From: Candidatus Thiodiazotropha sp. (ex Myrtea sp. 'scaly one' KF741663)
Lineage (GTDB): Bacteria > Pseudomonadota > Gammaproteobacteria > Chromatiales > Chromatiaceae
NCBI GenBank assembly: GCA_025655555.1
Contig: JAHXIQ010000004.1
Span: forward strand, 372,001-436,000
Length of the DNA stretch: 64,000 nucleotides
Direction: 5' to 3'
Shown: positions 11,744 to 54,848 of the stretch, piece by piece
Layout of the letters: each line of letters opens with the position of its first letter
Position numbering within the stretch: position 1 is the stretch's first letter
Made by a program: the position numbers and the translations under genes
Notes under the pieces: generated by a model
Told to the model about the DNA's origin: nothing
Database searches by the model: none
Seen by the model: only the letters and a program-made list of their open reading frames with translations

Positions 11744-11860
11744 TTAGGGCCTGTTAACACTAATCCAATGCGCCCTCTTGAGCCTGAAAAAGCACCAATC
11801 AAGGCGCACCCTAAGGGCACTTCCTTCGGGGCGTATTGGATTGGTGTTAACAGGCCCTAA
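11744..11860. repeat. Inverted-repeat element, short copy with inverted core
   Basis: A 117-bp element bounded by TAGGGCCTGTTAACAC and its complement; the two arms match over about 25 bases with one mismatch. The core (agcctgaaaaagcaccaatc onward) is the reverse complement of the right half of the cores at 13118 and 54553, so this copy is a shortened version in opposite orientation. TA flanks both ends. It contains no ORF. It sits directly between the M48 protease and MscS genes. Confidence 0.85.
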
Positions 11861-11925
11861 ATTGAACATATCTTCGATAATACTTATTACAATAGATGAA
11901 ATAAAAAACAGAGAATACATTTAAT

Positions 11926-13098
11926 ATGGCTGATACAAAGACTGAAACCATTATCGATGAGCCTACAGCCCCCGTTGAGTCTGTTCTTACCGAAGGTATG
12001 GAGGAGCTGGTCGAGAAGATAGATGTACCAGTTCAGCTTGAGCCCTTTGTTGCGATGTTTGGAAATCAACCTTGGATTAAAGGATTGCTGGTACTCTTCA
12101 TCTTCCTCGTTCTGGCGAAAGTTGTTGAGTGGGTGGTGATACCCCTGATCAGACGCCTCACTGCTCGTACATCAACGCATATTGATGATCTGATTGTGAC
12201 TCATATCCGCAACCCCATGTTTTGGACAATAGCTTTGATTGGGGCCTTGGTTGCAGCCGCTGTCTCTGGTGTAGATGCAGAGTCTCGCAGTGCTATGACT
12301 TCTTTTGTTATTTCGGTGCTTATTTTTCTTTGGATGTTATTTGCCGTTCGTGCATCCAAGTTAATACTATCGGCTGCCAGCCAATATGCTAAGCCAAAAG
12401 CCTTGGTAAGACCGCAAACATTGCCCTTGTTCACCAATCTGATAGCAATCGCGATTATCGTTTTTGCTGTCTATTTCATTTTTCAGTCATGGCATGTGGA
12501 TATGACAGCCTGGTTAGCATCCGCCGGTATCGCAGGTATCGCAATCGGTTTTGCCGCCAAAGATACATTGGCAAATCTGTTCTCAGGTGTTTTTATCATG
12601 GCCGACTCTCCGTACAAGATAGGTGACTATGTGGTGCTTGATGACGGGGGTGGTCTGCGTGGTAAGGTGACTCATATCGGAATACGGAGTACGAGGTTGC
12701 TGACCCGAGATGACGTAGAGGTAACTATACCAAATTCCATTATGGGTAATTCAAAGGTGGTCAACGAATCCGGTGGCCCCCATTTAAAATATCGCATCAG
12801 GGTTGCTGTCGGTGTGGCCTACGGTTCAGATATCGATCAAGTTCGAGAAGTGCTGATGTCGGTTGCCAATGAGTCTGATGCTGTGTGTGCTGAGCCGGAA
12901 GCTCGTGTACGCTTTCGTACTTTCGGTGCTTCTTCGCTCGATTTCGAACTGCTTTGCTGGGTAAATAATCCAGAGCTGCGCGGTCGCGTATTGGATGCGC
13001 TGAATACTGCTATCTACAAGAGATTCCTCAAAGAAGGCATAGAGATCCCATTCTCCAAGCAGGACCTCTATATTAAGGAGTTGCCTGGGGCAGAATAG
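11926..13098 (+). CDS. MscS-family mechanosensitive channel
   Basis: A 390-residue inner-membrane protein. After a soluble acidic N-terminus (about 60 residues) come transmembrane segments near 50-70, 100-115, 125-145 and 165-185. The pore helix is WLASAGIAGIAIGFAAKDTLANLFSGV, followed by the beta-domain FIMADSPYKIGDYVVL and PNSIMGNSKVVN, all hallmarks of the MscS fold. It opens on membrane tension to release solutes during osmotic down-shock. It is flanked by two copies of the inverted-repeat element. Confidence 0.92.
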   Translation: MADTKTETIIDEPTAPVESVLTEGMEELVEKIDVPVQLEPFVAMFGNQPWIKGLLVLFIFLVLAKVVEWVVIPLIRRLTARTSTHIDDLIVTHIRNPMFWTIALIGALVAAAVSGVDAESRSAMTSFVISVLIFLWMLFAVRASKLILSAASQYAKPKALVRPQTLPLFTNLIAIAIIVFAVYFIFQSWHVDMTAWLASAGIAGIAIGFAAKDTLANLFSGVFIMADSPYKIGDYVVLDDGGGLRGKVTHIGIRSTRLLTRDDVEVTIPNSIMGNSKVVNESGGPHLKYRIRVAVGVAYGSDIDQVREVLMSVANESDAVCAEPEARVRFRTFGASSLDFELLCWVNNPELRGRVLDALNTAIYKRFLKEGIEIPFSKQDLYIKELPGAE

Positions 13099-13117
13099 CA
13101 GACGTTCCCTTTTCTGC

Positions 13118-13348
13118 TAGGGCCAGTTAACACTGATCCAATCCGCCCTGCTGGAGTTGTTTTTGTGCCCAGCAAGGCAGAATGAGCGTGGTGTAGCTCG
13201 GCTACATGAGCTAATGATAACACCGCTGGGTGCGAAAACAGCGCCAGCCCTTCGGGTTGCGCCCCGAAGGAAGTGCCCTTGGGGTGCGCCTTGATTGGCG
13301 CTTTTTCAGGCTCAACAGGGCATATTGGATTAGTGTTAACAGGCCCTA
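13118..13348. repeat. Inverted-repeat element, 231-bp copy with internal hairpins
   Basis: The outer ends TAGGGCCAGTTAACACTG... and ...TAGTGTTAACAGGCCCTA pair over about 33 bases with four mismatches. Inside, 13150-13173 pairs with 13225-13248 (GCTGG...CCAGC arms). TGTAGC/GCTACA forms another hairpin and GCCCTTCGGGT a small tetraloop stem. TA flanks both ends. No coding frame is convincing. Confidence 0.85.
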
Positions 13349-13402
13349 AGAGCGGCTATTGGTATTTTTCACATACTTCTTGTAAGGGCAACTATACCCA
13401 GG

Positions 13403-13930
13403 CTATTTGCACTCTCCTATAGAGCCCTCTGCGCAGATTCTTCCGTCAGTCCATACTGCGTTGTCAAATTTGGCCTTGATCAGTATGGCGCGATGTAAAT
13501 TTGCACCTCGTAGATCAGCGCCACTGAGATCAGCATCAAACAGACTGGCGCCAGTAAGGTTGGCAAACATCAAATTAGAATTCCGCAGATTCACGCCGTG
13601 TAGATGAGCATACTCAAGGTTGCTTAGCATTAGGTTTGTCTCGTTGAGATTTGCCAGTTGAAAAATCGACCAAGAAAAATTAGCCCTTTCAAAATTGGAC
13701 CGATCAAGTCGGGCAGATGCTAAAGAAGATTCATGCATATCAACACCTGGCGCATCCACATCAATCAATATGGCCCAGGAGCATTGTGCTTCCGGCTCGA
13801 GTTTACAGACAGTATTTACATAGGCGGATTCGGTGATGTTTTCAGTCCAGGCCAGCGCCGGTAAATGCCAGGAGCCTATTAAAAATAAGATAAGGATTTG
13901 ATTGAAAAAAGTACGCTTCAATTGACGCAT
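13403..13930 (-). CDS. Exported pentapeptide-repeat protein
   Basis: A 175-residue protein with a signal peptide (RTFFNQILILFLIGSWHLPALAW). About 80-90 residues of A(D/N)LXX-type pentapeptides follow (for example SNLEYAHLHGVNLRNSNLMFANL, SGADLRGANL), which fold as a right-handed quadrilateral beta-helix. Two cysteines near the C-terminus (RICAEGSIGEC) and two in the region before the repeats (CKLEPEAQC) could form disulfides. Function of such exported versions is unknown. Confidence 0.85.
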   Translation of the reverse strand: MRQLKRTFFNQILILFLIGSWHLPALAWTENITESAYVNTVCKLEPEAQCSWAILIDVDAPGVDMHESSLASARLDRSNFERANFSWSIFQLANLNETNLMLSNLEYAHLHGVNLRNSNLMFANLTGASLFDADLSGADLRGANLHRAILIKAKFDNAVWTDGRICAEGSIGECK

Positions 13931-14043
13931 GTTGTCGCTCCCTGGTGTTGAATTAGATATCGCGTATCTACTGCAGGGTCGCGATAGTGTCGACCTATCA
14001 CTAGGTCCTGACTCTATGTTTTATCGTAGAACAATAATTTTCG

Positions 14044-14057
14044 TTGATCTATGACAA
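14044..14057. promoter_or_regulatory. FNR-like half-symmetric site
   Basis: TTGATCTATGACAA resembles the FNR/Anr box TTGAT-N4-ATCAA and is nearly identical to the site upstream of ccoN at 45019, which has TCAA in place of ACAA. It lies between the divergent pentapeptide-repeat gene and the DUF3012 lipoprotein gene, 114 and 176 bases from the two starts. The right arm is imperfect, so the call is weak. Confidence 0.3.
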
Positions 14058-14232
14058 TTAGCGTTCCCTTCTACAGATGATTGGAAATATTGAGTTCTGG
14101 AAATGGTGAGGATATAGATGCTTAGTGCGCGACATCACTACCATATTTTAATACCCGCTTTTAAAGAATGTTAACAAACACTTGGTAAATCTTATGTATT
14201 AATAACAACCTATACAATCAAGGGGTTATTTT

Positions 14233-14409
14233 ATGAAAAAACACTACAGGATCTTTCTCGTTTCCATGACAGGTGTTCTGTTTCTGACTCTCTCAGGTTG
14301 CGCTCAGGTTGGCAGTGAACGCTGGTGCAATAATATGAAAGATAAGGCAAAAGCTGACTGGACCGCAGGTGAAGCCGCAGATTTTGCAAAACATTGTATT
14401 TTAAAATAG
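14233..14409 (+). CDS. Small DUF3012-like lipoprotein
   Basis: A 58-residue lipoprotein. It has signal sequence MKKHYRIFLVSMTGVLFLTLSGC with the lipobox Cys at 23, then GSERWCNNMKDKAKADWTAGEAADFAKHCIL, which matches the pattern of the DUF3012 family (short lipoproteins with W-C-x3-M-K and a closing H-C). Function unknown. GGGG lies a few bases upstream of the ATG. It is 10 bases from the next gene, so the two probably form an operon. Confidence 0.8.
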   Translation: MKKHYRIFLVSMTGVLFLTLSGCAQVGSERWCNNMKDKAKADWTAGEAADFAKHCILK

Positions 14410-14419
14410 AGGTTCACTC

Positions 14420-14668
14420 ATGGATTTAACATCACTTCTGATCTTTCTCGCGATCGGTGCGGTCGCAGGCTGGTTGGCTGGTAACTTAATGAGAGGGGGC
14501 GGTTTCGGACTGCTGGTGAATATCCTCGTCGGTATAGTCGGTGCTGTGGTTGGTGGCTGGGTTTTCGGAATACTGGGTATTTCCGTAAATGGACTGATTG
14601 GGTCCCTTATTACAGCTGTGGCTGGTGCTGCGCTATTACTGCTTATCGTAGGATTAATAAAAAAATAA
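14420..14668 (+). CDS. GlsB/YeaQ/YmgE-type stress-response membrane protein
   Basis: An 82-residue, almost entirely hydrophobic glycine-rich protein with three predicted membrane segments (LIFLAIGAVAGWLAGNLMRGGGFGLLVNILVGIVGAVVGGWV). This matches the transglycosylase-associated/GlsB-YeaQ-YmgE family, often induced by envelope or acid stress; the biochemical role is unknown. Its start overlaps the tail of a GAGGTTCACTC leader 10 bases after the DUF3012 gene. Confidence 0.85.
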   Translation: MDLTSLLIFLAIGAVAGWLAGNLMRGGGFGLLVNILVGIVGAVVGGWVFGILGISVNGLIGSLITAVAGAALLLLIVGLIKK

Positions 14669-14690
14669 GGGCTATCAGTAGCTCTTTTTT

Positions 14691-14720
14691 ACAGTAACCC
14701 CCTCCTGTGGGGGTTACTGT
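14691..14720 (+). terminator. Hairpin after the GlsB-type gene
   Basis: A perfect 12-bp stem ACAGTAACCCCC / GGGGGTTACTGT with a 6-base loop, 22 bases after the stop codon. A T-run (cttttttt-like) precedes it and none follows, so it is either a processing/stability hairpin or a poor terminator. Confidence 0.55.
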
Positions 14721-15183
14721 CAATCAAATAATTCCCACGATCAAACGCTAATACATGTAATGATTATGTAATCATAGCTGGTGTATTCAACCGGTTTGAA
14801 TTGCTAGTCAGCTCTTGTTGAAATCAGGCGTTACTGAAATATTTACCTGGCTGTAGTGATCATACTTCAATGACTGTATGACACACTGGGGTGAGAGCGG
14901 ACGGATAAGATGTGTACTTTAGCTATTTTTAATATTGGTTTTATGATCTAACGTCAGGACAGATTCTGTATGCTATCTTGAATGATGATGGATATTAGGT
15001 TACCTAGGAAATCCCAGAATAATTGATTTTATTGAGAGAACATCAGAGCAAGAGTGTTCTATAGTTCAAGGTACAACAATCTAGATTCCGTTTTGTGATT
15101 GGAGTAAATCTTAAGCATATAATTTAGTGCCAATGGCATGATTATGCTTGATGGCGGAGAAATTATTCAGGGAAAAGGGTTGA
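14721..15183. other. Long AT-rich intergenic region
   Basis: About 460 bases without an ORF of protein-like composition on either strand. No RNA gene or repeat was recognised. It presumably holds the promoter of the PhnD-like/GGDEF-EAL pair, but no convincing -35/-10 pair can be singled out by eye. Confidence 0.5.
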
Positions 15184-16062
15184 GTGGACGGCAGAAATCT
15201 CGTCTTGAAATGGTCTTATCACCATTTTAGGGTGCTATCCCTAGTGGTTGGGATACTTGTGGCCAGTACAAGTATGGCAGAGTCACTGATCCTTGGTATT
15301 CATCCTTATCGGCCACACGCAGAGCTGATCGAGATGTTTTCTCCATTAGCACAATATCTCACTCAAGAGACCGGTCAGACTGTCGAAGTGCGAGTCGGTG
15401 AATCATACGAGTCTCATTTCAAAGCAATACTACAGGGCAAGGTTGATTTCGCATTTCTGGGTCCTGCAATATATGTGAAGTTAACTCGTGAGAATGAGGT
15501 TCCTCATCTACTTGCCAGACTGGAAATCAACGGACGTCCTACTTTCACTGGTAGAATTATTAGTAGAGAAGGCAGCGGGGTTGAGACGCTAGAAGATCTA
15601 AGGCATACCCACTTTGCATTTGGCAGCCTATCCTCCACAATGAGCCATCTGGTACCCAGGCAGATGCTTTATGAGGCAGGAATAGATGTGACTGATTTCG
15701 CAGGACACCAGTTCTACAGTAATCATAATAATGTTGCGCTGGCCATACTTGCAGGTGATGCAGATGCCGGCGCGGTAAAAGAAGCAGTCTACGAAAAGTA
15801 TCGACCTCTTGGGATTGTATCAATCGCTACCACGCCAGAGATTTCTGAACATCTTTTTATCGCACCGATCGGGACAGACCCAGCTAAGGTAGTAAGACTA
15901 CGTCATCATCTTCTAAGCCTGACAGCTGAAAATCCAATAACCAGGCAGGTGCTGGGTCCTATCAAGAGGACAGCTACTGCACTGGTTAAAGTAGAGAGTG
16001 ATGATTACCTTGAATTGAGGAAAATTCTCGCAGCATTGAGAGACCGAGGTGTGATCGAATGA
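15184..16062 (+). CDS. PhnD-like periplasmic phosphate/phosphonate-binding protein
   Basis: A 292-residue exported solute-binding protein of the PhnD/SsuA2 type. It has a GTG start, an N-terminal hydrophobic segment (LSLVVGILVASTSMAES), then the family blocks LGIHPYRPHAELIEMFSPLAQYL, VDFAFLGPAIYVKL, FAFGSLSSTMSHLVPRQML and VALAILAGDADAGAVKEAVYE. No ABC permease or ATPase is nearby. Instead, its stop overlaps the start of a membrane GGDEF/EAL protein by 4 bases. It is therefore probably a sensor partner that reports a phosphorus- or other ligand to c-di-GMP turnover rather than a transporter component. Confidence 0.85.
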   Translation: MDGRNLVLKWSYHHFRVLSLVVGILVASTSMAESLILGIHPYRPHAELIEMFSPLAQYLTQETGQTVEVRVGESYESHFKAILQGKVDFAFLGPAIYVKLTRENEVPHLLARLEINGRPTFTGRIISREGSGVETLEDLRHTHFAFGSLSSTMSHLVPRQMLYEAGIDVTDFAGHQFYSNHNNVALAILAGDADAGAVKEAVYEKYRPLGIVSIATTPEISEHLFIAPIGTDPAKVVRLRHHLLSLTAENPITRQVLGPIKRTATALVKVESDDYLELRKILAALRDRGVIE

Positions 16063-18644
16063 ATCGGAAGTGGCATCTTCCAACCCTGACATGGGTGGTG
16101 TTGGCTACCATAATCTTCACGCTTATTCTTTCTGCAGCTATGGGCCTCGTTATCAGACATGAGCACCAAGGGCATCTAGAATTTACCAAGAATTTGGCTG
16201 ATGGACAAATGGAAGCCATAGGGTTAATCACGGAAATTGAACTCCAGAAGGGTAGCTATGACACGTTAAACACAGTGTTTAATCAATGGGCTGGTGAGAA
16301 CAATGAAATCGATGAGATTACTCTAATCTCAAAAAATGGGTTTGTGATCGCCAGCTATGGTCCAATCAACCCTTCGGAGCGCCGTTATATTATCCGTAAA
16401 GAGATCCCATACTCTTACCGCGGACGCGCTAATCTCATGCTGGCGCAGAGTCTGGAAGGTGCCTATATGCGCACTCAGCATCTGGGACTGGAAATGCTTG
16501 CTGTTATTGCGGTGCTGTCAGGTGGTTTTTTTCTCCTCACCCATCTTTTCCTCTCTCGGCGACATGAGGCAAGACTCCTGTCGCTTGCTGTTATAGAGCT
16601 GCGTGAATCAGAGTCGCACAATCTACGGCTTGCAGCGTATCCGCAGGAAAATCCTAATCCTATTATTGCATTTGATTTGGATGGAAAGATGACGTTTAAG
16701 AATCCGGCATGTTCCATGCTGATGCGACGACTTAATGAAGTCGATATCAGAGCGATTCTTCCTGACGAGCATAAGAAATTCATCACTAGAATTCGTGATG
16801 GAGAGAACCAGCTTTTCACAGAGAAGCTAGTTGGAAGGATTCATCTACTTGCGCACTATCAAATGATTGATGTGGCAAATGAGATCTATGTCTATATCCA
16901 GGATATCACGGCACAACGTCGCGCAGAGAGCGAATTAAGGAAGGAGCGTAATCAGGCGCGTACCACTTTAGGCTCTATTGGAGATGGTGTTATTTCTGTG
17001 AATAGGGACGTAGCGATTACTTATCTGAATACTTCAGCTGAGAAACTCTGCAGGCTGGAATCGCGCGAAGTGCTGGGAAAAAGCTTCTCAGAGGTGATCA
17101 CCCTCATTGACGAGGATGAAGGCGGGTCGATTGACGCTCAGATTATATCATGTCTGGGAAAAACTGCTGGAGAAGCAATCAACAAACAGGCGTCATTAGT
17201 GCTGCCAGACGGTGAGCAATTAAATGTAGATGTTACGGCGACCAGTATCATAAGCCAAGATGATGAAATGCGTGGTGTGGTTATTGTATTGCGCGATGTG
17301 ACGCGGGAAAAGCGGCTACAGGGAGAGCTTCATCGACAAGCGAAACATGACAGTCTAACCGATCTGATGAACAGAAGTGCATTCGAATCGCACTTGGAAA
17401 ATGCTCTTGAGTCAGCGCGTAGTAGAGATCATGAACATATTCTCTGTTTTATGGATCTGGATCAATTTAAAGTGGTCAATGATACATGTGGCCACGTTGC
17501 CGGTGATGAGCTGTTACGACAGTTGGCCGTTGTGATGCGAAAGCACTTCCGAGGCAGTGACGTGCTTGCGCGTATTGGGGGAGATGAGTTCAGTGCGATT
17601 TTAATTGACTGCCCAATGGATCGGGCAATAGAGCGTATCGACTCATTGCGTGGTGAAGTGCAAGAGCACATATTCAATTGGGAGAATCATAGTTTTCGAA
17701 TCACTTTAAGTATCGGTGTGGTACCGATTGATCAATACAGTGAAAGTACGGCTCGACTGATGAGCACTGCTGATGCTGCCTGTTACACAGCGAAGGACAG
17801 TGGTCGTAACTGTATTAATGTTTATGAAAGGGATGGTGCTTCGACAAAACTCAGGCTTGGCGAGATGCAGTGGGTTGCACGTATTAACAGCGCATTAGAA
17901 GATGATCGTTTGACACTTTATGCACAGCCAATAGTTGAGTTAAATCGCAGTGAAGCCGGTATCGTTGCCCTCGAGATCCTGGTTAGAATGAGAGGTACTG
18001 ATAATGAACTGATACCACCGGGTGCTTTTTTGCCGGCAGCAGAGCGCTATGATCTGATAGAGCGCATCGACCACTGGGTGATTGAGAAAGTCATGTGTGA
18101 GCTGTCTGCGTGTCAGGGTGCAACCCCAGACTGCTTTATCAATTTATCCGGCGCAACACTCAGTCGTAATCATATTGCCCCCTACTTGAAGCGGATGTTT
18201 GAAAAGTACAGTGTCAATCCTTCACAATTGACTTTTGAAGTGACTGAAACAGTCGCCATCCAAAACCTCTCCAGTGCAATTCAAATGATTCATGAGCTGC
18301 GAGCCATTGGCTGCCGTTTTGCTTTGGATGATTTTGGTTCTGGGCTCTCATCCTTCGGTTATTTGAAAAATTTACCACTGGACTTTGTGAAGATTGATGG
18401 CATGTTTGTTAAAGATATGCATGTTGATCCACTGGATCGCAGCATGGTGGAAGCAATACATACCGTAGCTTCTACCATGAAACTGACAACGATAGCAGAA
18501 TTTGTTGAGAACGATGAGGTCAAGGAGGAACTTCGGATAATAGGTATTGACCTGGGACAGGGTTATGGTATCGCTCACCCCAAACCATTTACTGAATACA
18601 TCTCTGGCGAAAATGGCAGTAATGTGATCTGGCTACGAACCTGA
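16059..18644 (+). CDS. Membrane PAS-GGDEF-EAL cyclic-di-GMP enzyme
   Basis: An 861-residue protein. Transmembrane helices near 10-30 and 145-165 enclose a periplasmic loop of about 115 residues. PAS-like regions lie at about 195-285 and 300-420 (YLNTSAEKLCRLESREVLGKSFSEVI). A GGDEF cyclase domain with intact GGDEF at 507-511 follows, then an EAL phosphodiesterase domain from about 610. The EAL signature reads E639-I-L rather than EAL, but the catalytic Glu and the later NLS, ETE, DDFGSG and VKID motifs are present, so it may be active. It is translationally coupled (ATGA) to the PhnD-like protein, which probably supplies the periplasmic signal. Which activity dominates cannot be told. Confidence 0.9.
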   Translation: MNRKWHLPTLTWVVLATIIFTLILSAAMGLVIRHEHQGHLEFTKNLADGQMEAIGLITEIELQKGSYDTLNTVFNQWAGENNEIDEITLISKNGFVIASYGPINPSERRYIIRKEIPYSYRGRANLMLAQSLEGAYMRTQHLGLEMLAVIAVLSGGFFLLTHLFLSRRHEARLLSLAVIELRESESHNLRLAAYPQENPNPIIAFDLDGKMTFKNPACSMLMRRLNEVDIRAILPDEHKKFITRIRDGENQLFTEKLVGRIHLLAHYQMIDVANEIYVYIQDITAQRRAESELRKERNQARTTLGSIGDGVISVNRDVAITYLNTSAEKLCRLESREVLGKSFSEVITLIDEDEGGSIDAQIISCLGKTAGEAINKQASLVLPDGEQLNVDVTATSIISQDDEMRGVVIVLRDVTREKRLQGELHRQAKHDSLTDLMNRSAFESHLENALESARSRDHEHILCFMDLDQFKVVNDTCGHVAGDELLRQLAVVMRKHFRGSDVLARIGGDEFSAILIDCPMDRAIERIDSLRGEVQEHIFNWENHSFRITLSIGVVPIDQYSESTARLMSTADAACYTAKDSGRNCINVYERDGASTKLRLGEMQWVARINSALEDDRLTLYAQPIVELNRSEAGIVALEILVRMRGTDNELIPPGAFLPAAERYDLIERIDHWVIEKVMCELSACQGATPDCFINLSGATLSRNHIAPYLKRMFEKYSVNPSQLTFEVTETVAIQNLSSAIQMIHELRAIGCRFALDDFGSGLSSFGYLKNLPLDFVKIDGMFVKDMHVDPLDRSMVEAIHTVASTMKLTTIAEFVENDEVKEELRIIGIDLGQGYGIAHPKPFTEYISGENGSNVIWLRT

Positions 18645-19368: not shown

Positions 19369-19394
19369 GCAGAGTAGACTGTATGTTACTCGAG

Positions 19395-19426: not shown

Positions 19427-19440
19427 CCTATGGAGTCTGT

Positions 19441-20332: not shown

Positions 20333-22084
20333 ATGTGTGGCGATAAAGACGATCTGATCCGGCAGGCGATACCAAGCGGCGTCATGCTCAATGCTTATCC
20401 GGATAGTATTGGAGGCAAGCTATCTGACATTGTCTCATTACTGAAACGGCCGGAGCTTAAAGAGGCGTTCTCCCTCTTCTACATTCTCCCGACATTTTTC
20501 AATAGCGATCTTGACCGTGGGTTCTCCATTATCGACTACGGTCTCAATGATGAGCTTGTTTCAGCAGTGGATCTGGATGAGTTGCACAAGCTGGGTATCA
20601 CTTTCAAATTCGATCTCATACTGAATCATCTGTCAGTAGCTTCACCACAGTTCAAAGACATGCTGGAGAAGGGGGATGAGTCTGAATACAAACATTTTTT
20701 TGTTGATTGGAACGCATTCTGGCATGCTCACGGTGAGCTAGGTGAAGATGGATATATCATTCCAAAAGAAGATTATCTGGATAAGTTGTTCATGCGTAAA
20801 CCTGGTTTGCCGATTTTGAATGTGGGCTTTCCAGACGGTTCCCAACGACCTTATTGGAATACGTTCTATCAGCAGGTCAGCTATACAGCGATTGCCCCAC
20901 AGGACCTGACCGGTATTCAGGGTGTAACTCATGAGGGGGCTGTGGCTATTGCTGCTATGGTTAACGACAACCTAAAGGCGGAGGCAGATCTACAGACGAT
21001 GGATCTGGACGGCTATGCCGGTTACCGAAGTGAAATTCTCTCGGTAATCAAGAAAAAGCGCCGATATCTTGGCCAGATGGACCTGAATCCGGAATCGGAG
21101 AAAGTTTGGGCGTTTTATGAAGAGACACTGAAAAAATTAAAGCACTACGGCGCTAAGATCATTCGATTGGATGCCTTTGCCTACCTGCATAAAAAACCGG
21201 GTGAGAAGAACTTTTTCAACAAACCGGGGACCTGGAAGTATCTGGAACGACTGAAGCAGATTGCCAAGCGGTATGAGTTGACTATCTTTCCTGAAATCCA
21301 CTCAGAATACGGCACCCACATTCATGAAGAGGTAGCAGGGAAGGGTTATCCAATTTACGATTTTTTCTTTCCAGGGCTGGTCATAGATGCTTTGGAAAGG
21401 GGGACTAACGAGCACCTGCTTGCCTGGATCTCAGAAATTACCCAGAAAGACTTGCAGACCATCAATATGTTGGGCTGTCACGATGGGATTCCCGTACTGG
21501 ATTTGAAGGGGGCGACGGTTGAGGGAGGTTATCGGGAGGGATTACTGGATGATGATCAGATCGATACGGTTGTCGATCGCGTTATTGAGCGGGGCGGCAG
21601 GGTCAAGAATCTCTATGGTGCAGACGGTAAGAAGATCTCATACTACCAGGTCAATGCCACCTTCTTCAGCGCATTGGGAGAGGATGAGCAGAAGCTCAGG
21701 CTGGCACGGGCGATTCAGTTGTTCATGCCTGGCATTCCCCAGGTGTGGTATCTCGATCTGTTTGCCGGCAAGAATGACTATGAGGCCGCTGACAAGGGTG
21801 GTACGGCCGGTCATAAGGAGATTAACCGCACCAACCTCAATCTCAGCGATATCGAGACAGGGTTGAAACAATCGGTGGTGCAGGATCAAATCGAGATGCT
21901 TCGTTTGCGCAATACCTCCCCCGCCTTTTTGGGACAACTGAGGGTTGAAACCTCGGACTCAAATTGCCTGGAATTAAGCTGGCAGAATGAAAACTGCCGT
22001 GCGATTCTGCGGGCAGATCTGCAAAGCTGTCATTTCACGATTGAGCATAACCGGGGTGATGAGTCGCTCATGCTGTCGTATTAG
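20333..22084 (+). CDS. GH13 sucrose-phosphorylase-like enzyme
   Basis: A 583-residue cytoplasmic alpha-amylase-superfamily enzyme resembling subfamily GH13_18. These enzymes reversibly phosphorolyse sucrose or related glucosides to glucose-1-phosphate. Catalytic blocks are visible: FKFDLILNHLS (region I), IIRLDAFAYLHK with nucleophile D280, IFPEIHSEYG with acid/base E321, and NMLGCHDGIPV with H383-D384. The early block MLNAYPDSIGG is typical of the group. Relatives also act on glucosylglycerate and glucosylglycerol, compatible-solute chemistry that would suit a marine cell, but the acceptor cannot be decided here. No sugar transporter is adjacent. Confidence 0.8.
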   Translation: MCGDKDDLIRQAIPSGVMLNAYPDSIGGKLSDIVSLLKRPELKEAFSLFYILPTFFNSDLDRGFSIIDYGLNDELVSAVDLDELHKLGITFKFDLILNHLSVASPQFKDMLEKGDESEYKHFFVDWNAFWHAHGELGEDGYIIPKEDYLDKLFMRKPGLPILNVGFPDGSQRPYWNTFYQQVSYTAIAPQDLTGIQGVTHEGAVAIAAMVNDNLKAEADLQTMDLDGYAGYRSEILSVIKKKRRYLGQMDLNPESEKVWAFYEETLKKLKHYGAKIIRLDAFAYLHKKPGEKNFFNKPGTWKYLERLKQIAKRYELTIFPEIHSEYGTHIHEEVAGKGYPIYDFFFPGLVIDALERGTNEHLLAWISEITQKDLQTINMLGCHDGIPVLDLKGATVEGGYREGLLDDDQIDTVVDRVIERGGRVKNLYGADGKKISYYQVNATFFSALGEDEQKLRLARAIQLFMPGIPQVWYLDLFAGKNDYEAADKGGTAGHKEINRTNLNLSDIETGLKQSVVQDQIEMLRLRNTSPAFLGQLRVETSDSNCLELSWQNENCRAILRADLQSCHFTIEHNRGDESLMLSY

Positions 22085-22098
22085 TGTTAGCAGGCCTA
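22080..22098. repeat. Degenerate end of the inverted-repeat element
   Basis: attagtgttagcaggccta differs by only one or two changes from the right end of the repeat family (attagtgttaacaggcccta). It overlaps the stop codon region of the GH13 gene. No left arm is seen, so it is a remnant or a chance match. Confidence 0.4.
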
Positions 22099-30485: not shown

Positions 30486-30736
30486 GTCAAGGGTTTTGTC
30501 AGATTGACCGGATAGGATGTTTTGATTCCAATGAAAGGTGTTATTCAATCTACTTACAGGCGAGTGACCTGTTTGTACTGATTAGATTGCCGCATTTATA
30601 TCCAGCAAGGCAGAAGGCGTACTGTGTTGCCGCTCAAGATCAGCGACGACTGATGGCAGCGCCGAGTGTAATGGTCTTTGTGCTTTGAATGGTACATAAA
30701 GGCACCGCTCAGCATTGCTTGTCACTTATTCAGGGC

Positions 30737-30763
30737 AAAAAAAAGGACGCCAATTGGCGTCCT
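30737..30763 (-). terminator. Rho-independent terminator of soxYZ
   Basis: Read on the minus strand, a perfect 20-base palindrome AGGACGCCAATTGGCGTCCT is followed by a run of eight T. It lies 42-68 bases after the soxZ stop, behind a second hairpin. Confidence 0.85.
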
Positions 30764-30774
30764 ACGGGTTTTCT

Positions 30775-46686: not shown

Positions 46687-46706
46687 TTCAAAGGGGGTTT
46701 CGCAAA

Positions 46707-48466: not shown

Positions 48467-48553
48467 AACCTTCACTAATTCGAACGAGCATTTTTTCCAT
48501 CTGTACTGTGTGAGGCCGAGTGCCTCACACGGATTAAATAAAAGGGGATTGCT

Positions 48554-48682
48554 ATGAACGGAGATGCAGTATTTTGGGGTTCCATCATCACCGTCGTGAT
48601 AAGTGTTGTTATCATTATATTTCTTGGCTTTAAAGTTAAGAATCTAATTAAGAGCGACGCCGAGAAGCACGGTAACCAATAG
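48554..48682 (+). CDS. Small single-helix membrane protein after ccoP
   Basis: A 42-residue protein with AAGGGG 5-8 bases before the ATG. It begins MNGDAVFWGSIITVV. One transmembrane helix spans about 8-25, followed by a basic amphipathic tail. It sits between ccoP and a strong terminator, so it ends the ccoNOQP transcript. Small cbb3-associated subunits such as CcoM are known in other bacteria, but I cannot match this sequence to one. It may be a stabilising subunit. Confidence 0.7.
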   Translation: MNGDAVFWGSIITVVISVVIIIFLGFKVKNLIKSDAEKHGNQ

Positions 48683-48702
48683 ACTTTTTTGATCTATTGA
48701 AG

Positions 48703-48730
48703 AAGGGGGGTTAAAACCCCCCTTTTTTTA
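48703..48730 (+). terminator. Rho-independent terminator of the ccoNOQP transcript
   Basis: The stem AAGGGGGGTT / AACCCCCCTT with a short A-loop is followed by TTTTTTT. It lies 20 bases after the small membrane protein stop. Confidence 0.9.
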
Positions 48731-48894
48731 TGTGTGATATTTTCTGTGTATGACGTGTTGAAACTAAGGTATTTCCAATGGTTTAAGTATGTTGAATGAC
48801 ACTAAGTTATTGATAAAACGCATTGGCCAGGGAGTGCTTGAGTATATATGATTATCCTAATCTACGACCCCCTGATCTAACAGGAGAAAGACCG

Positions 48895-50331
48895 TTGAGT
48901 GAGACAAAGAATGTGGCATCCCGGCAGCAATCCGTGGATGACCTCTATGAAGAGTCGGTACATTGGCACTTGAACACGGGTGATGAGACCATTCATGCAA
49001 AACGCATGGGTGGCTACTGGCGTAATATCAAGTGGCTGGCTGCTTCAAGTTGGATCATTTTCTTTGTGGGTCCCTATTTTCAATGGGATGGCAGGCAAGC
49101 CGTACTTTTCGATATCCCTAATCGACAGTTTCATATTCTGGGTGTCACGATCTTACCCCAAGATTTCTGGATGCTCTCCCTCGCACTACTTTTTTTAGCA
49201 TTGTTGCTTGCCGTGGTCACAGCGCTGGCGGGACGCATCTACTGCGGCTTCTTCTGTTTTCAGACCATATGGACGGATGCCTTCACTTGGTTGGAGGAAA
49301 AATTAGAAGGAAGTCCACAGAAAAGGCGTAAGCTGGAGAAAGCCTCTCTTGACTTCAGAAAGGTTAGAATCAAGACGACGAAGCATCTGCTTTGGTTGGC
49401 GATATCGGTACTGACCGGTATCAGTTTTGTTGCCTGGTTTTATGGCGCTTTTGAGATCTGGCGTGATTTTTTCACCCTAAAAGCCAGTCCGGTCGCCTAC
49501 GGATTTATCGCTATGTTCACAGCGGGCACATATGTGTTGGCGGGTTTCATGCGCGAGCAGGCCTGTTTTTGGCTTTGTCCCTATGCCCGTATTCAGGGGG
49601 TCATGATTGACCAAACTACAATTGTGCCTACCTATGACTACCATCGTGGTGAGCCTCGTGGACGGATCAAGAAGGGCGTGTCCGAAGAGGAACGGACAAC
49701 GGGTGATTGTGTGGACTGTAAACAGTGCATAGCGGTCTGTCCTACCGGGGTGGATATCCGTCATGGACAGCAGGAGGGGTGTATCATGTGTGCACTCTGC
49801 ATTGATGCCTGTGACGAGGTTATGGAGAAGATTGGGCGCCCAACAGGGCTGATTCGATTCGAGTCATTCGAGTCGATGGAAGCCAACAAAAAGCCTCAAC
49901 CGCTCTACAAACGTCCTCGGGTCTGGGTCTACTCTGCCATTATGTCTTTGGCACTGGTGGGTATCGCTTACGGACTGACTTCACTGGCGCCACTGGAACT
50001 GAAGGTGATACATGCCCGTCAGCCATTATTTGTACTGCAGAGTGACGGTAGCATTCAGAATAAATATACCCTGAAGATTCTCAATAAAATGGGTGAAGAT
50101 ATTCAGGCAACTATCAGTGCCACCGGGCCGGAAGGGCTGATTCTTGTCGATGCGGATCAGGTGACAACCGCCCGCCACGGAAAGGTGACGCCGAGAACTG
50201 TCTTCGTCAAGGTGCCGAAACAGAATCTCACGCAGGAGACAACTCCAATTGTGTTTACCGTGCAGGGTGAATACAACAATCAGGTGCTATCAGGTGATCG
50301 AAAGAGCGTGTTTATCGGTCCACGCCTATAG
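48895..50331 (+). CDS. ccoG: CcoG-type [4Fe-4S] ferredoxin, cbb3 maturation
   Basis: A polyferredoxin of 478 residues involved in copper reduction for cbb3 assembly. It has several membrane helices and Cys in GRIYCGFFCFQTIW and CFWLCPYARIQ, then two 4Fe-4S motifs: CVDCKQCIAVCPTGVD and CIMCALCIDACDEV. A beta-rich periplasmic C-terminus follows. TTG at 48895 is chosen as start because AGGAGA lies 8 bases upstream, while the frame to 48823 lacks this. Confidence 0.93.
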   Translation: MSETKNVASRQQSVDDLYEESVHWHLNTGDETIHAKRMGGYWRNIKWLAASSWIIFFVGPYFQWDGRQAVLFDIPNRQFHILGVTILPQDFWMLSLALLFLALLLAVVTALAGRIYCGFFCFQTIWTDAFTWLEEKLEGSPQKRRKLEKASLDFRKVRIKTTKHLLWLAISVLTGISFVAWFYGAFEIWRDFFTLKASPVAYGFIAMFTAGTYVLAGFMREQACFWLCPYARIQGVMIDQTTIVPTYDYHRGEPRGRIKKGVSEEERTTGDCVDCKQCIAVCPTGVDIRHGQQEGCIMCALCIDACDEVMEKIGRPTGLIRFESFESMEANKKPQPLYKRPRVWVYSAIMSLALVGIAYGLTSLAPLELKVIHARQPLFVLQSDGSIQNKYTLKILNKMGEDIQATISATGPEGLILVDADQVTTARHGKVTPRTVFVKVPKQNLTQETTPIVFTVQGEYNNQVLSGDRKSVFIGPRL

Positions 50332-50419
50332 CAATCTGTTGTATCATAGACAACTCACTCGGGAGGGTGGACTGTTATGTCCGCCCTTCGTCGTTAAAGA
50401 TTATTTATAACTGGCAATT

Positions 50420-50923
50420 ATGACAGAGAAAAAATCAGCTTGGCGGAGCCCGTGGGTTATCGGCTGGATCCTGATGGTGGTTATCTTCTTCACCATGAAT
50501 ATGATCATGATCTACCTGGCGCAGAGTGGTAGTCCTGGTCTGGTGGTGGATGACTTTTATGATCGCGGGCAGGATTACGAGAAGAACATGCTCAAACGTC
50601 AGGCAAGGAATCCCGGTTGGCAGATGAAGATCGAGCTGCCGAAAAAATTCGGTGTTGACGAACCGGTTATATGCCGGTTTTCCGTGCTCGATAAAGCAGG
50701 CAATGCTATTGATCCCGACAGCGTTACTTTCTATGCTTACCGGCCTTCAGATGCTAAGCAAGACTTTTCTGTTCCGATGCAGAAAGTGGGAGCCGGCCTC
50801 TACGAAGCTGAGGTTAGTTTTCCGTTGTTGGGCGTATGGGATATGCTTGTCAGCGTCACGAATGGTGAGGATGAGTACAACACACCGAAACGGATCAGTG
50901 TCGGTATCGATTTGATTCCCTGA
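50420..50923 (+). CDS. ccoH: FixH/CcoH family cbb3 assembly protein
   Basis: A 167-residue protein with an N-terminal membrane helix (WVIGWILMVVIFFTMNMIMIYLA), the FixH block PGLVVDDFYDRGQDYEKNM and a periplasmic beta domain. It is needed for assembly or stability of cbb3 oxidase in other bacteria. It lies between ccoG and ccoI. Confidence 0.92.
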   Translation: MTEKKSAWRSPWVIGWILMVVIFFTMNMIMIYLAQSGSPGLVVDDFYDRGQDYEKNMLKRQARNPGWQMKIELPKKFGVDEPVICRFSVLDKAGNAIDPDSVTFYAYRPSDAKQDFSVPMQKVGAGLYEAEVSFPLLGVWDMLVSVTNGEDEYNTPKRISVGIDLIP

Positions 50924-50931
50924 GTCACGAT

Positions 50932-53433
50932 GTGTCTGAATTGAATTCAGCGCAGACCTGTTTTCACTGCAGCCTGCCGGTACCTCCGCACGAAGAGGTT
51001 GAGGCTGAGATCGAAGGCGAAATGCAGCAATTTTGTTGCACCGGCTGTAAAGCGGTTTGCCAAGCTATTTTTTCAGCAGGCCTTGAAGGTTTCTATCAGC
51101 GCACACCTGAGGATGCCTGTCTCGCACCCCCACCAGAAATCCCCAAAGAACTGGCACTCTATGACCTTGACGAAGTGCAGGAGGAGTTCGTTGGTGGTCT
51201 GGAAGAGGAGCGGGATATTCATCTGCTTATCGAAGGCATTCACTGCGCGGCTTGTGTTTGGCTCATCGAACATACGCTGAATGCCATGCCCGGTGTGGTT
51301 ACGGCGCAAGTCAATCTTTCCGGTAAAAGGCTTCATGTTAAGTGGCATAACGGACGTCTCCCGTTATCACAAATCATTCAACGGTTGGGACAGATCGGCT
51401 ATGCCGCTGTTCCTTATGATCCCGAGGTGGCCGAGGGTGCACTGAAAAAGCAGAATCGCCATCTGCTCTATCGCATGGCATTCGCTGCATTCGGCATGAT
51501 GAATCTGATGTGGATCTCCATTGCCCTCTATGCCGGCGCCAGTCAGGGTGAGTTCCGTAGTCTCTTCCATTGGGTGGGTTTTGCACTGGCGACACCTGTG
51601 TTGCTCTATTCCGGTTATCCTTTCTATAAAGGCGCCTGGTCGGGCTTGAAGAATTTTCACCTGGGGATGGATCTGCCGATTGCGATCGGTGCCTCGATCA
51701 CCTATCTCTATTCCGTTTACGTGACCCTGACCGGCAGCGTGGTGGGGGAAGTCTATTACGATACCGTCGTCAATTTTCTTTTCGTCATTCTGGTCGGTCG
51801 TTATCTTGAAGCGATGTCCAAGCGCCAGGCTGTTGCTGCGACGCAAAGGTTGCTCGATCTTCAACCGAGGGTTGCCACGCTTTTTCAAGATGGCGGAGAG
51901 AAGATGGTGCCTATTCGAGCCGTCAACATAGGGGATATCGTACTGGTCAAGCCGGGAGAACGAATCCCTATCGATGGACTCATTATCGAAGGTCGTGGCA
52001 GCGTTGATGAGTCGATGCTGACTGGTGAATCTCTGCCTGCAAACAAAGGGCCGGGTGACGAAGTCTCTGCAGGTACGATCAACAGTCATGGTGCCCTGCA
52101 GATCGAAGTGAAAGGCTCACTGAAGAATACTGCCCTTGGCCGCATCATCGGTCTGGTCGAGGAGGCTCAGGGCTCGAAAGCGCCGATCCAGTGTCTGGCA
52201 GACCAGATTGTACCCTGGTTTGTAGCCGCTACTCTGGGATTGGCGACAGTGACCTTTCTCTATTGGGTTGGCAGTTCGTTGGAAGTGGCACTATTGGCTG
52301 CAACCTCCGTGTTGATTATCACCTGCCCATGCGCATTTGGCCTGGCGACACCCATGTCTATCGCAGTGGCCTCCGGGCTTGGCGCTAAATACGGCATCTT
52401 GGTCAAGAACGGTGAGGTGCTGGAAACGCTCTCTTCCATCAATCATGTGATTTTCGACAAGACGGGAACCCTGACTGAAGGGGGTATGTCTGTCGTTGGT
52501 ATCTACACGGAAGCTCATGTGTGGGAAGGGTATAAAGAAGATGATGCGACTGAAGAAGTCCGCTCACTTATGATGAAGCTGGCTGCGGTGGAGCGCTTTG
52601 CGGAACATCCAACCGCTCAGGCCGTGCTCGATTGGGTAGCGTCCCAGTCACTGGACCAGCACGGGCTGAAAGCAAAGAATTTCGAATACAGACCGGGGCA
52701 GGGTGTCAGTGCTACGGTGGATGGCGAGGAGATTTTTGTAGGTAACCCAAGTCTGCTGACTCACCATAACATCAATGCTTCAGAAACATTCAAGACACTG
52801 GCCGCTACGCTGGATAATCGGGGTGTGGGTTCGATTCGAGTGGCCGTGGATGGCAGGGAGGTTGCATTACTGGCAGTCGAAGACAGAATTCGCCCAGATG
52901 CCAAAGAGTTGATCGATGCACTTAAAGCCGAGGGGTTAAGTCTGACACTACTCAGTGGTGATAGACAGGACGCCGCCGAGGCAATCGCCCAGCGGCTAGG
53001 CGGTATGAATGTAATTGCCGAGGTGTTGCCTGAAGAGAAAGATCAGGTAGTGCAACAATTACAGGCCAAAGGAGAGCGGGTTGCTATGGTGGGTGACGGT
53101 GTGAACGATGCGCCGGCCCTGGTACGTGCCGATGTGGGAATTGCCATGGGTTCGGGAACTGATGTCTCGATCGCCAGTGCCGATATTGTTCTGATGAGTG
53201 GTGAGCTGGAGAAAGTACGCCTTGCCATCGGCCTCTCCCGACGTACGCTGAGTACAATTCGACAAAATATAGGCATTTCAATTACCTACAATATCATTAT
53301 GGTGCCCTTGGCCATGTCGGCGATCGTCACTCCACTGGTAGCAGCGATCTCGATGCCGATGAGTTCACTGGCAGTGATCGGTAATTCAGCCAGAATCCGC
53401 ACCCTGTTCAAAGGTGTTAAGATAAAGTCATGA
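50932..53433 (+). CDS. ccoI: CcoI copper-translocating P-type ATPase
   Basis: An 833-residue P1B ATPase that supplies copper for cbb3. It has an N-terminal Cys-rich extension (CFHCSLP, CCTGCKAVC), a metal-binding domain with C105-AA-C108, eight helices, the translocation motif C465-P-C467, phosphorylation site D509-KTGT and hinge GDGVNDAP near 721. GTG start 8 bases after ccoH. Confidence 0.95.
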   Translation: MSELNSAQTCFHCSLPVPPHEEVEAEIEGEMQQFCCTGCKAVCQAIFSAGLEGFYQRTPEDACLAPPPEIPKELALYDLDEVQEEFVGGLEEERDIHLLIEGIHCAACVWLIEHTLNAMPGVVTAQVNLSGKRLHVKWHNGRLPLSQIIQRLGQIGYAAVPYDPEVAEGALKKQNRHLLYRMAFAAFGMMNLMWISIALYAGASQGEFRSLFHWVGFALATPVLLYSGYPFYKGAWSGLKNFHLGMDLPIAIGASITYLYSVYVTLTGSVVGEVYYDTVVNFLFVILVGRYLEAMSKRQAVAATQRLLDLQPRVATLFQDGGEKMVPIRAVNIGDIVLVKPGERIPIDGLIIEGRGSVDESMLTGESLPANKGPGDEVSAGTINSHGALQIEVKGSLKNTALGRIIGLVEEAQGSKAPIQCLADQIVPWFVAATLGLATVTFLYWVGSSLEVALLAATSVLIITCPCAFGLATPMSIAVASGLGAKYGILVKNGEVLETLSSINHVIFDKTGTLTEGGMSVVGIYTEAHVWEGYKEDDATEEVRSLMMKLAAVERFAEHPTAQAVLDWVASQSLDQHGLKAKNFEYRPGQGVSATVDGEEIFVGNPSLLTHHNINASETFKTLAATLDNRGVGSIRVAVDGREVALLAVEDRIRPDAKELIDALKAEGLSLTLLSGDRQDAAEAIAQRLGGMNVIAEVLPEEKDQVVQQLQAKGERVAMVGDGVNDAPALVRADVGIAMGSGTDVSIASADIVLMSGELEKVRLAIGLSRRTLSTIRQNIGISITYNIIMVPLAMSAIVTPLVAAISMPMSSLAVIGNSARIRTLFKGVKIKS

Positions 53434-53452
53434 GTTGTCGCGACGGAGTTGA

Positions 53453-53656
53453 ATGATGGACGTTATCTATGGCTTGATACCCGGCATGATCCTATTGGGG
53501 CTGGCTGCAGTAGGTGTGTTGTTCTGGGCAGCCCGTAGTGGTCAATTCGACGATCTTGAGGGAGAGGCGCACCGTATCCTGATGGATGACGACCTGCGGC
53601 CCGCTAAAAAGAAAAAGCCCAAGCAGCGGATGCCCGATGCGGAAGATCAAGAGTAG
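53453..53656 (+). CDS. ccoS: CcoS, cbb3 assembly protein
   Basis: A 67-residue single-helix protein (GLIPGMILLGLAAVGVLFWAARSGQFDDLEGEAHRIL), the CcoS signature with the FDDLEG turn, followed by a Lys-rich tail. Last gene of ccoGHIS, which delivers copper and cofactors. A second ATG at 53456 is an alternative start. Confidence 0.93.
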   Translation: MMDVIYGLIPGMILLGLAAVGVLFWAARSGQFDDLEGEAHRILMDDDLRPAKKKKPKQRMPDAEDQE

Positions 53657-53660
53657 CCAT

Positions 53661-54359
53661 TCATCCCTGTTGCTTAAGCGTCTCTTCGTACTGCCTGTTG
53701 TTCTCTTCAATGCGGTTGGTGAGTGGTTCGATCTCACTCAGTGGCATGTATTGAATTAACTCTTTTCCATCTGGATTGAGGCCGATACTGATGCCATTCT
53801 CTGTGTAGATCCAGTGTGTGACGCCAGTTTCTGTCTCAGTGATCTTTTCCGCCGGTTGGCCGAAACGGCTGGTCACCAACTCTTCATCCAGATTGGCATA
53901 AGGTATGTAGTTGATCAGTTTGATCGGCAGGTCGGTGGCCAGAGCGTGGTCCTCACTACTGAGTTCCACTTTGTGAGTGGACTGGCTGGTACGGCTGATA
54001 CGGCTGCCACGGTCATAGAGGCGTGACAGTAGTTCACTGTCTGCATCCAGTACCAGAATGAAGTCGGCTCTGAGTCCGCTCAGAAAGACACGCTCGAAAT
54101 ACGCCTCCAGCGCAGGATTACCGTTATGATCAATGAAAAGATTGAGTTCACCCTGCATCTGAAATACCTGTCTGGCATCGTTCAGCGAACTCGTCCCCAG
54201 GGTTAAGTCGAATACCTCCAGTGCACCTTGAGGGGTCAGGTGTGTCTCCCAGGGGAGTTTGGGATCGCTGTCCACCTGACGCCCGCCAGGCAGTAGAATG
54301 GCAAGTGCGATAGCGACCAGGGAGAGGGACAAAACCCAGAAGATGATCTTTTTTTCCAT
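53661..54359 (-). CDS. Membrane-anchored protein of unknown function
   Basis: A 232-residue protein not recognised. It has one N-terminal helix (IIFWVLSLSLVAIALAILLPGG) and a periplasmic body. The start at 54359 is favoured by GGAAAG and the membrane segment; in-frame sequence to 54431 is not protein-like. The gene converges with ccoS, the stops being about 4 bases apart. No partner can be named. Confidence 0.7.
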   Translation of the reverse strand: MEKKIIFWVLSLSLVAIALAILLPGGRQVDSDPKLPWETHLTPQGALEVFDLTLGTSSLNDARQVFQMQGELNLFIDHNGNPALEAYFERVFLSGLRADFILVLDADSELLSRLYDRGSRISRTSQSTHKVELSSEDHALATDLPIKLINYIPYANLDEELVTSRFGQPAEKITETETGVTHWIYTENGISIGLNPDGKELIQYMPLSEIEPLTNRIEENNRQYEETLKQQG

Positions 54360-54552
54360 TGGAATAACTTTCCGGTATTGATAATTGACGAGGTACACTA
54401 ACGAATCGGTCCCGCGATGTCTTGCTGCCAATGCGAATTGAGTACTGAGTGGGCATCCATCCGTTGTGTCAGCATGACCAGAGGAGATTCTACAATGGGA
54501 AGCAGTCTTTGGTTCATAACAATTCTCAAAGAACAGCCCTGGATTGGGCTGT

Positions 54553-54848
54553 TAGGGCCTGTTAACACTAATCCAATAGGTTCTGCTGGGACTGTTTTTG
54601 TACCCAGCAAGGCAGAATGAGCGATGTGTAGTCACTCTACATAAGCGAATGATAACGCCGCTGGGTGCAAAAACAGCCCCAGCCCTTCGGGTTACGCCTG
54701 AAAAAGCGCCACTCGGCGTTGCACGTCGTTCATTTGGAATAACCAAACTTCTCTCCTCGCGCCCCAAAGGAAGTGCCCTTGGGGTGCGCCTTGATTGGCG
54801 CTTTTTCAGGCGCAACAGAACCTATTGGATTAGTGTTAACGGGCCCTA
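54553..54848. repeat. Inverted-repeat element, longest copy (296 bp)
   Basis: Outer arms starting TAGGGCCTGTTAACAC pair over 33 bases with one mismatch, extending through the copy-specific CCAATAGGTTCTG. The core has the same internal GCTGGG...CCCAGC stem and TGTAG/CTACA hairpin as the copy at 13118. It has an extra insert of about 68 bases after GGTTACGCC (gcctgaaaaagcgccactcg onward). The insert starts with GCCTGAAAAAGCGCC, which is the reverse complement of the GGCGCTTTTTCAGGC near the element's end. TA flanks both sides. ORFs inside it are chance. Confidence 0.9.

Follow-up and report, generated by a model that had tools for sequence, protein, structure and literature searches.

The 64,000-nt stretch analysed here (the window; positions 372,001 to 436,000 of contig JAHXIQ010000004.1 from Candidatus Thiodiazotropha sp. 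(ex Myrtea sp. 'scaly one' KF741663)) contains several copies of a dispersed inverted-repeat element. These repeats are probably copies of a non-autonomous transposon that is mobilised in trans by the IS5 family of insertion sequences (IS) and that has a folded twin-hairpin core under selection. The element is usually about 269 bp long, is flanked by TA, and is an inverted dimer of a 133-bp unit, which consists of a terminal repeat, an arm and a 100-nt imperfect hairpin. This elaborate fold is kept across many distantly related bacteria, suggesting that the fold itself has a job.

Anatomy and fold of the element

Pairs of ends up to 420 bp apart were sought in the loci then in hand, yielding 134 pairs, or 96 once duplicates were removed. 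Among these 96 unique paired elements, of which some of the shortest are probably chance pairs, 48 have lengths of 267-271 bp and other groups lie at 230-231, 295-298 and 323 bp; even the longest, at 323 bp, is too short to hold a transposase gene. A profile of 133 positions was built from half elements; in complete copies, each of the two halves is matched from one end of the profile to the other, and the two matches have opposite orientations and are usually separated by 3 nt, so that the element is an inverted dimer. The two modules have AAGGC..GAGCG..AGCGA..AACGCC in common when each is read inward from its own end. No larger element with a gene between its halves was noticed among the loci matched by the half-unit profile; the spacing of complete halves is mostly 3-30 nt, and the other loci are truncated at contig ends, have decayed or have been rearranged (L175 has both halves pointing the same way, and L191 a wide gap).

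Two side observations concern the halves. In an alignment of 61 elements, the inner part of hairpin B (GCGTTGCTCGTCG..CATTTGGA..ACCAAAC..CTCCTCGCGCCTTG) is more conserved in sequence than the corresponding part of hairpin A, and the two halves are therefore not equivalent. At L195:685-951, one hairpin is flipped relative to the usual arrangement, placing both modules in the same direction, as if the inversion had occurred between the hairpin's own stem arms; L344:1501-1708 probably carries the same inversion.

The copy at 54553-54848 folds far better than its shuffles (z = -17.95, as DNA), and the copy at 13118-13348 also folds better than shuffles (z = -11.10, as RNA). In an alignment of 28 elements (A1), with a 95-pair structure derived from that alignment, 93.1% of 2648 cells are standard pairs, compared to 77.2% in shuffles and 34.6-43.2% when the pairing partner is slid. 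Two-sided changes are present in 70 of the 95 pairs (shuffles, 42.5; slid, 32-36), and the covariation score is 0.434 (shuffles, 0.146; slid, 0.062-0.078).

Because the A1 structure came from A1 itself, two non-circular tests were run. The first set the minimum-energy fold predicted from one sequence against the covariation in 14 other rows, all less than 85% identical to the source and to each other; across the four sources tried, the folds contain 14-16 of the top 20 covarying column pairs and 27-31 of the top 60, where 0.26-0.27 are expected. In the second, the A1 structure was laid on elements fetched later from 62 loci (L333-L394), with two loci excluded as belonging to the same genome or genus. 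These yielded 33 complete pairs of 255-285 bp away from contig ends, of which 23 passed an 85% identity filter against the 28 A1 elements and against each other. In the 23 further rows, 1987 of 2169 cells (91.6%) pair under the A1 structure, compared to 36.7-40.2% in slid controls, and two-sided changes occur in 82 of the 95 pairs (slides, 37-46). The paired cells are distributed across the terminal repeats (357/362), the arms (284/320), hairpin A (635/728) and hairpin B (644/690); all of the pairs in the arms vary, making the two-sided count uninformative there (14/14; slides, 11-14).

A preliminary description of the window, made from its letters, had argued that pairing is kept while sequence changes and that a folded form therefore matters. 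Both non-circular tests support this argument, and they are accompanied by the arm differences that it had reported (AGGTTCTG/CAGAACCT in the 54553 copy, GCCCTG/CAGGGC in the 13118 copy) and by an inner stem that reads TGTAGC/GCTACA in one case and TGTAG/CTACA in another; identical arms left by recent duplication, the explanation that it had set against its own, are excluded. No Rfam covariance model matches the window at its gathering score. Moreover, at E <=1, none matches inside the elements of seven loci, while five matches fall elsewhere in those loci (three tRNAs and two sub-threshold miRNA models), and a known Rfam RNA family is thereby rejected as the element's identity.

Strand asymmetry of wobble pairs

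Wobble states were counted as GT versus AC cells, using only those pairs whose commonest state is not a wobble. In 26 later rows, the GT:AC counts are 41:18 in hairpin A, 11:21 in hairpin B and 17:18 in the basal stem (Fisher test of A versus B, 0.0018); in 15 rows from A1, they are 24:16, 10:29 and 11:10, respectively (Fisher test, 0.003). Wobble is better tolerated on the top strand in A and on the bottom strand in B, which in both cases is the strand reading inward from the hairpin's own end. This tolerance on opposite strands implies that each hairpin seems to be under selection as a folded single strand.

Terminal repeats, target sites and a candidate mobiliser

The preliminary description had raised the prospect of an IS with matching ends and TA target sites, and five such IS were found. 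They are 818-828 bp long (L127, L184, L211, L227 and L111), are bounded on either side by TAGGGCCTGTTAACAC and TA (a single mismatch is present, in one end out of ten), and come from Pelomonas sp. Root1237, metagenome-assembled genomes of a Burkholderiales bacterium, a Xylophilus and a Verrucomicrobiota bacterium, and a viral contig. In the three of the five that were scanned (L127, L227 and L111), both reading frames match DUF4096 and DDE_Tnp_1; the L127 and L227 frames also match the NCBIfam IS5 model, one of the four above its cut-off, and the L184 and L211 IS are related to the L127 IS by tblastn. A Variovorax plasmid match at 82.6% identity is annotated as an IS5 family transposase, an assignment that concerns the annotation and not the ends. 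Within the same genus, two loci of genome G159 (L236 and L238) hold a more distant IS relative with the 13-mer at one end and a divergent other end, and locus L237 of genome G153 holds a shortened IS copy.

The terminal repeats differ from host to host, and the module is also found inside other ends, such as GGGTCTGTTGACGTTT, GAGCCTGTCTGTGAATAA, GGGGGTGTTAACAAT and GGGACTGTTCTCAATG. The GGGTCTGTTGACGTTT type occupies both ends, one with a single mismatch, of a different IS5-like IS in L397, so that the element's terminal inverted repeats are matched by autonomous IS for two types of end. Scans of viral contigs for GAGCCTGTCTGTGAATAA ends returned nothing, and those for GGGGGTGTTAACAAT found the ends but no IS5-like match. 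Since two terminal-repeat types match two different IS5-family IS, mobilisation in trans by an IS5-family transposase that is encoded elsewhere and acts via the terminal repeats is the best account of these ends. The IS with the same ends have no hairpins: the half-unit model covers only positions 1-23 to 1-31 in L127, L134, L184, L187, L211 and L227, and it reports nothing in the L111 IS. As a side observation, Desulfovibrio contigs L179, L185 and L206 have a GGGCCTGTTAACACTAAT end but no sequence that matches the model's hairpin part; this end may belong to another miniature inverted-repeat transposable element (MITE) or to an IS with the same ends.

A parent IS in the own genome was also considered and rejected: the end pairs 650-1900 bp apart (L061, L062, L063 and L086) have no tblastn match to the IS5 frames, L061 encloses two open reading frames (ORFs) that, by eye and with no scan, were judged ordinary chromosomal genes, and PF01609 has only two matches in the genome.

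TA is present on both sides of 78 of the 96 unique paired elements. In addition, the site of the 11745 copy is empty in the related genome G155, which reads CCTGAGT-TC-AATTGAA where the window reads CCTGAGT-TA[element]TA-AATTGAA, and a 323-bp copy (L003:161-483) is missing from both G155 and G158; the two empty sites are compatible with TA duplication. G158 and G155 also have the element at the 54553 site, and the 13118 site offers no clean comparison with relatives. In four copies (L010, L018, L019 and L030), the TA target together with the element's initial G makes up the TAG stop codon of the preceding gene, consistent with insertion at the TA of stop codons. Relative to neighbouring genes, 34 own-genome copies of at least 100 bp divide into 8 between divergent, 8 between tandem and 7 between convergent genes, 1 inside an ORF and 10 not assessable, where gene orientation comes from a simple longest-ORF script that makes the orientation counts uninformative. 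By its short length with no transposase gene, its IS-matching ends and its target duplication, the element qualifies, as judged from sequence, as an IS5-mobilised MITE whose action in trans is predicted.

Copies in the window and their decay

TAGGGCCTGTTAACAC, at up to three mismatches, occurs eight times in the window, whereas 100 shuffles average 0.37 occurrences and never exceed 2. The preliminary description had listed three full copies and two remnants there. All three copies are present, but only the one at 54553-54848 has both hairpins, the other two being internally deleted; its coordinates and those of 13118-13348 were right, while the first copy had been placed one position off and lies at 11745-11859. 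Its further remark that the window holds no transposase stands for the nine window proteins scanned against Pfam, none of which is a transposase.

The complete element (54553-54848, plus strand, 296 bp) consists of TA-flanked terminal repeats, covarying arms that form the basal stem, hairpin A, a CCCTTCGGG linker, and hairpin B with a nested 27-bp insert. Hairpin module A spans 100 nt (54585-54684, plus strand) and is matched by R1, a hairpin-only covariance model, at 101.2 bits (E = 3e-25); module B, split by the nested insert, lies on the minus strand at 54690-54815, its end estimated from the sequence (R1 match at 54690-54789, 51.4 bits; half-unit match at 54689-54848), and the 20-nt core of the insert is at 54765-54784 (plus strand, one mismatch). 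The 231-bp copy (13118-13348, plus strand) retains the whole of hairpin A (13150-13249, plus strand; R1, 83.9 bits, E = 1.6e-20), has lost most of hairpin B, and has one nested insert at the junction (13265-13284, plus strand). The 115-bp derivative (11745-11859, plus strand) keeps its ends, a portion of one of the outer stems and a single nested insert (11809-11828, minus strand, one mismatch), with both hairpins nearly gone. Both remnants were found, a solo terminal repeat at 4763-4778 and a degenerate one at 22080-22098, each on the minus strand. A decayed copy that had been overlooked lies on the plus strand at about 30569-30770, with its right end set by eye and weak matches (nhmmer, E = 1e-4; R1, E = 0.0021).

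Across the own genome (3.98 Mb, nine contigs), GGGCCTGTTAACA occurs 137 times at up to one mismatch, compared to 2 times for the reversed control, and a search with the 13118 copy gives 87 matching pieces at E <=0.001. Of the unique paired copies in the own genome, 25 of 38 are at least 260 bp long. In the window and loci L001-L100 together, there are 23 solo ends, 16 of them followed by CTA, and three 18-bp palindromes (GGGCCTGTTAACAGGCCC), a pattern compatible with deletions between short direct repeats located at the foot of the hairpin. In a direct case, a 57-bp derivative in L150 corresponds to a solo end in L067, with loss between CTAAT repeats; the flanks of L067 and L015 are 92-98% identical to contigs of Candidatus Thiodiazotropha (ex Monitilora ramsayi) (L067/L150 and L015/L157). 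Further, the deleted copy L016 is nearest to a full copy (98.3%), as is L017 (96.5%), and L016 is 96.1% identical to the similarly deleted L017, implying that deletions arise repeatedly and need not breed. The record of shortened copies would speak in favour of a need for the complete core, short of proof.

The nested 27-bp repeat (TGCGCC-CCGAAGGAAGTGCCCTTGGGG-TGCGCC) is found in 24 places in the own genome at up to two mismatches, four of which are outside the element. It sits at several different GCGCC positions of the element, is flanked by repeated (R)CGCC, and is repeated in tandem in L181 and L224. Its appearance is that of another very small palindrome, mobile or expanding, inside the element.

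Distribution

TAGGGCCTGTTAACAC is present in 30 of the 146 genomes of the family. R1 matches 91 of 369 genomes of the class at E <=1e-4, and 112 of 398 genomes of the phylum at E <=1e-6, where 55 of the 72 matches outside the class belong to one family; both samples include the own genome, and 10-11 candidates were scored per genome. Among the matches listed in a contig scan, the named hosts of complete elements are Gammaproteobacteria and Zetaproteobacteria, and some loci hold only ends (Desulfovibrio) or only the IS (Burkholderiales, Verrucomicrobiota). Plasmid copies have both halves in Halomonas, Azotobacter and Pseudomonas, and one half in Methylophaga. One query against phage records had no match, and the L346 element, the one tried, had none in E. 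coli genomes at E <=0.001. As a separate observation, L113, L115 and L117 are copies on contigs classed as viral in IMG/VR, making these contigs possible vehicles of spread.

Proposed mechanism and alternative explanations

In the mechanism that we propose, IS5-family DDE transposases would recognise the terminal repeats, duplicate the TA target and move the element in trans. The core between the repeats would not be filler; it would be an inverted dimer of a 100-nt hairpin that is selected as a folded single strand, each hairpin presumably being kept in whichever strand runs inward from its end of the element. The copies that multiply seem to be those of full length; short copies would be dead ends, produced when slippage occurs between nested inserts or between the short repeats at the feet of the hairpins. 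The fold would act in cis, quite plausibly, if at somewhat less than an even chance, as RNA transcribed into the element from flanking genes; nearly as plausible is an action as single-stranded DNA displaced at both ends while the element is transposed or replicated. The structure, its covariation, ends in common with IS5-family elements, polymorphic insertion at TA and a wide distribution are shown by the data; which transposase would act in a given host, that only full-length copies multiply, the choice between RNA and DNA, and the benefit of the fold are inferred. The preliminary description had offered a DNA cruciform recognised by a mobilising enzyme or a folded RNA; the fold may be either DNA or RNA, and the cruciform as a recognition signal is disfavoured relative to recognition of the terminal repeats.

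Several observations weigh against the proposed transposon with a selected core. Its mobility is the account that would best explain the ends and sites, with no transposition event observed; both empty sites have one substitution in the relative's TA, so that a clean single TA was not seen, and the IS orfA query finds nothing in the own genome and has a match in 2 of the 22 genomes of the genus. No sigma-70-like promoter appears in the three element regions scanned, and an RNA would therefore need read-through, which by a simple view is not available to the 8 of 23 intergenic copies that lie between divergent genes. The wobble counts are cells, partly shared by descent and not independent events, the 26 later rows were filtered against each other and not against A1, and the pair counts on A1 alone are weak (in hairpin A, 14 pairs with GT and 12 with AC). 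The Infernal E-values are rough by the tool's own statement, and the idea that short copies do not breed would follow from one pair of deleted copies. Finally, template switching within the element could make the arms agree too, but could not conserve unpaired loops.

Three further roles or identities were rejected or dropped. A terminator-like hairpin is found in B in two of the three regions scanned, little above chance, and the scans of these regions for either a terminator or a promoter came out near chance. A conserved box in hairpin B pairs to the E. coli rrnA rRNAs no better than chance allows, with 30 of 200 shuffles as good. Integron attC was dropped as an identity, as its core-site motif presumably does not fit.

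Were the element an ordinary MITE with no functional core, template switching in replication would copy one hairpin arm onto the other. Quasi-palindrome correction is an established process, and strand-switching events do occur here (the flips in L195 and probably L344, and the foot deletions), but such copying would erase the loops, while AAGGC, GAGCG, AGCGA and AACGCC are unpaired and conserved in distant hosts. Moreover, mismatches persist in the arms of own-genome copies, columns 26/255 are unpaired in 10 of 28 cells, and template switching predicts no strand asymmetry, leaving this explanation improbable. A tentative alternative, on the unlikely side, is that the fold works as DNA, with hairpins or a cruciform on the 5'-ended strand at each end aiding assembly, strand choice or repair after strand transfer. 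The strand asymmetry is as compatible with displaced 5' strands at the two ends as with inward RNA, the same motif on opposite strands in the two hairpins would be natural for a two-ended DNA complex, and no internal promoter was seen in the three regions. However, IS with the same ends lack the hairpins, indicating that the transposase can act on its own IS without them, and a preference for GT over AC is the usual signature of RNA, although DNA too favours GT over AC.

Movement of the hairpins by a REP-associated tyrosine (Y1) transposase, as in repetitive extragenic palindromic (REP) sequences, REPINs or TIRtrons, is very improbable. The element does resemble these systems in its inverted pairs of imperfect hairpins, its intergenic location and its high copy number; Y1 matches are found in 21 of the 22 genomes of the genus, and tyrosine transposases with long terminal repeats are described in PMC3733652 (section 16). 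Yet the 30 Y1 loci examined, out of a larger number, hold one complete element (L297) and one partial element (L276, E = 5.5e-6), with a non-significant match in L279 (E = 0.084), and the TA flanks and IS5-type ends are unlike this group. A link to Y1/RAYT or TIRYT transposases was rejected on these 30 loci, in which elements do not regularly flank Y1 genes.

The proposed transposon may also be read in a more speculative way, which we consider doubtful: as a DNA transposon that carries a folded nucleic acid as its true payload. By this reading, an ancient twin-hairpin core would have persisted across Proteobacteria by changing its ends to suit whichever IS5-family transposase was available, and the core, as RNA or single-stranded DNA, would capture a transposase that otherwise prefers its own copy. 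In a comparable way, the folded dimeric RNA of short interspersed nuclear elements (SINEs) helps them to use the proteins of long interspersed nuclear elements (LINEs).

Comparison with known systems

Bacterial MITEs are commonly regarded as remnants of IS, with interiors that are disposable; in this element, a fold is kept by compensatory change across great distances while the transposase-facing ends have changed. An old question becomes testable, namely how non-autonomous elements win a transposase in trans and whether a folded core is the reason. In addition, A1 and R1 provide a structural model for annotating many intergenic regions that are now blank. The literature searches turned up no description of the twin-hairpin core or of the end or core strings, which is weak evidence of novelty given that most subscription journals and preprints lie outside their coverage. 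As far as these searches show, the conserved, covarying twin-hairpin core is undescribed in an element that is otherwise a MITE by kind.

The sequence of the enterobacterial repetitive intergenic consensus (ERIC) is one that we take to differ from that of the element. ERIC is likewise a short, folding, intergenic repeat with a host-dependent copy number, found in Enterobacteriaceae and Vibrionaceae (PMC10969869); unlike the element, it is listed as 127 bp long (PMC2759123, PMC2229807), and the L346 element is without a match in E. coli genomes. REPINs/RAYTs and TIRtrons share the inverted hairpin pairs and go with Y1 HUH transposases (PMC3733652), an association that was not seen for the element. 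The R0 and R2 repeats of P. fluorescens also have inverted repeats identical to those of a resident IS and have been proposed as MITEs (PMC2718517); they are 89 and 110 bp long and are set apart from the element by description only.

Overall, the closest likeness is to prokaryotic MITEs (PMC10969869; MITEAba12, PMC6382973; MITEPsy1, PMC3189936), which, as described there, have no transposase gene, share terminal repeats with IS, duplicate their target, are mostly intergenic, form stem-loops and occur in many copies. MITEAba12, for example, is described as a 113-bp element whose core measures 81 bp, found in Acinetobacter and in a single Moraxella genome (PMC6382973). Unlike these MITEs as so described, the element has an interior in which a conserved, covarying hairpin is present as an inverted dimer; this interior has been retained in at least two classes of Proteobacteria even as the element's terminal repeats changed.

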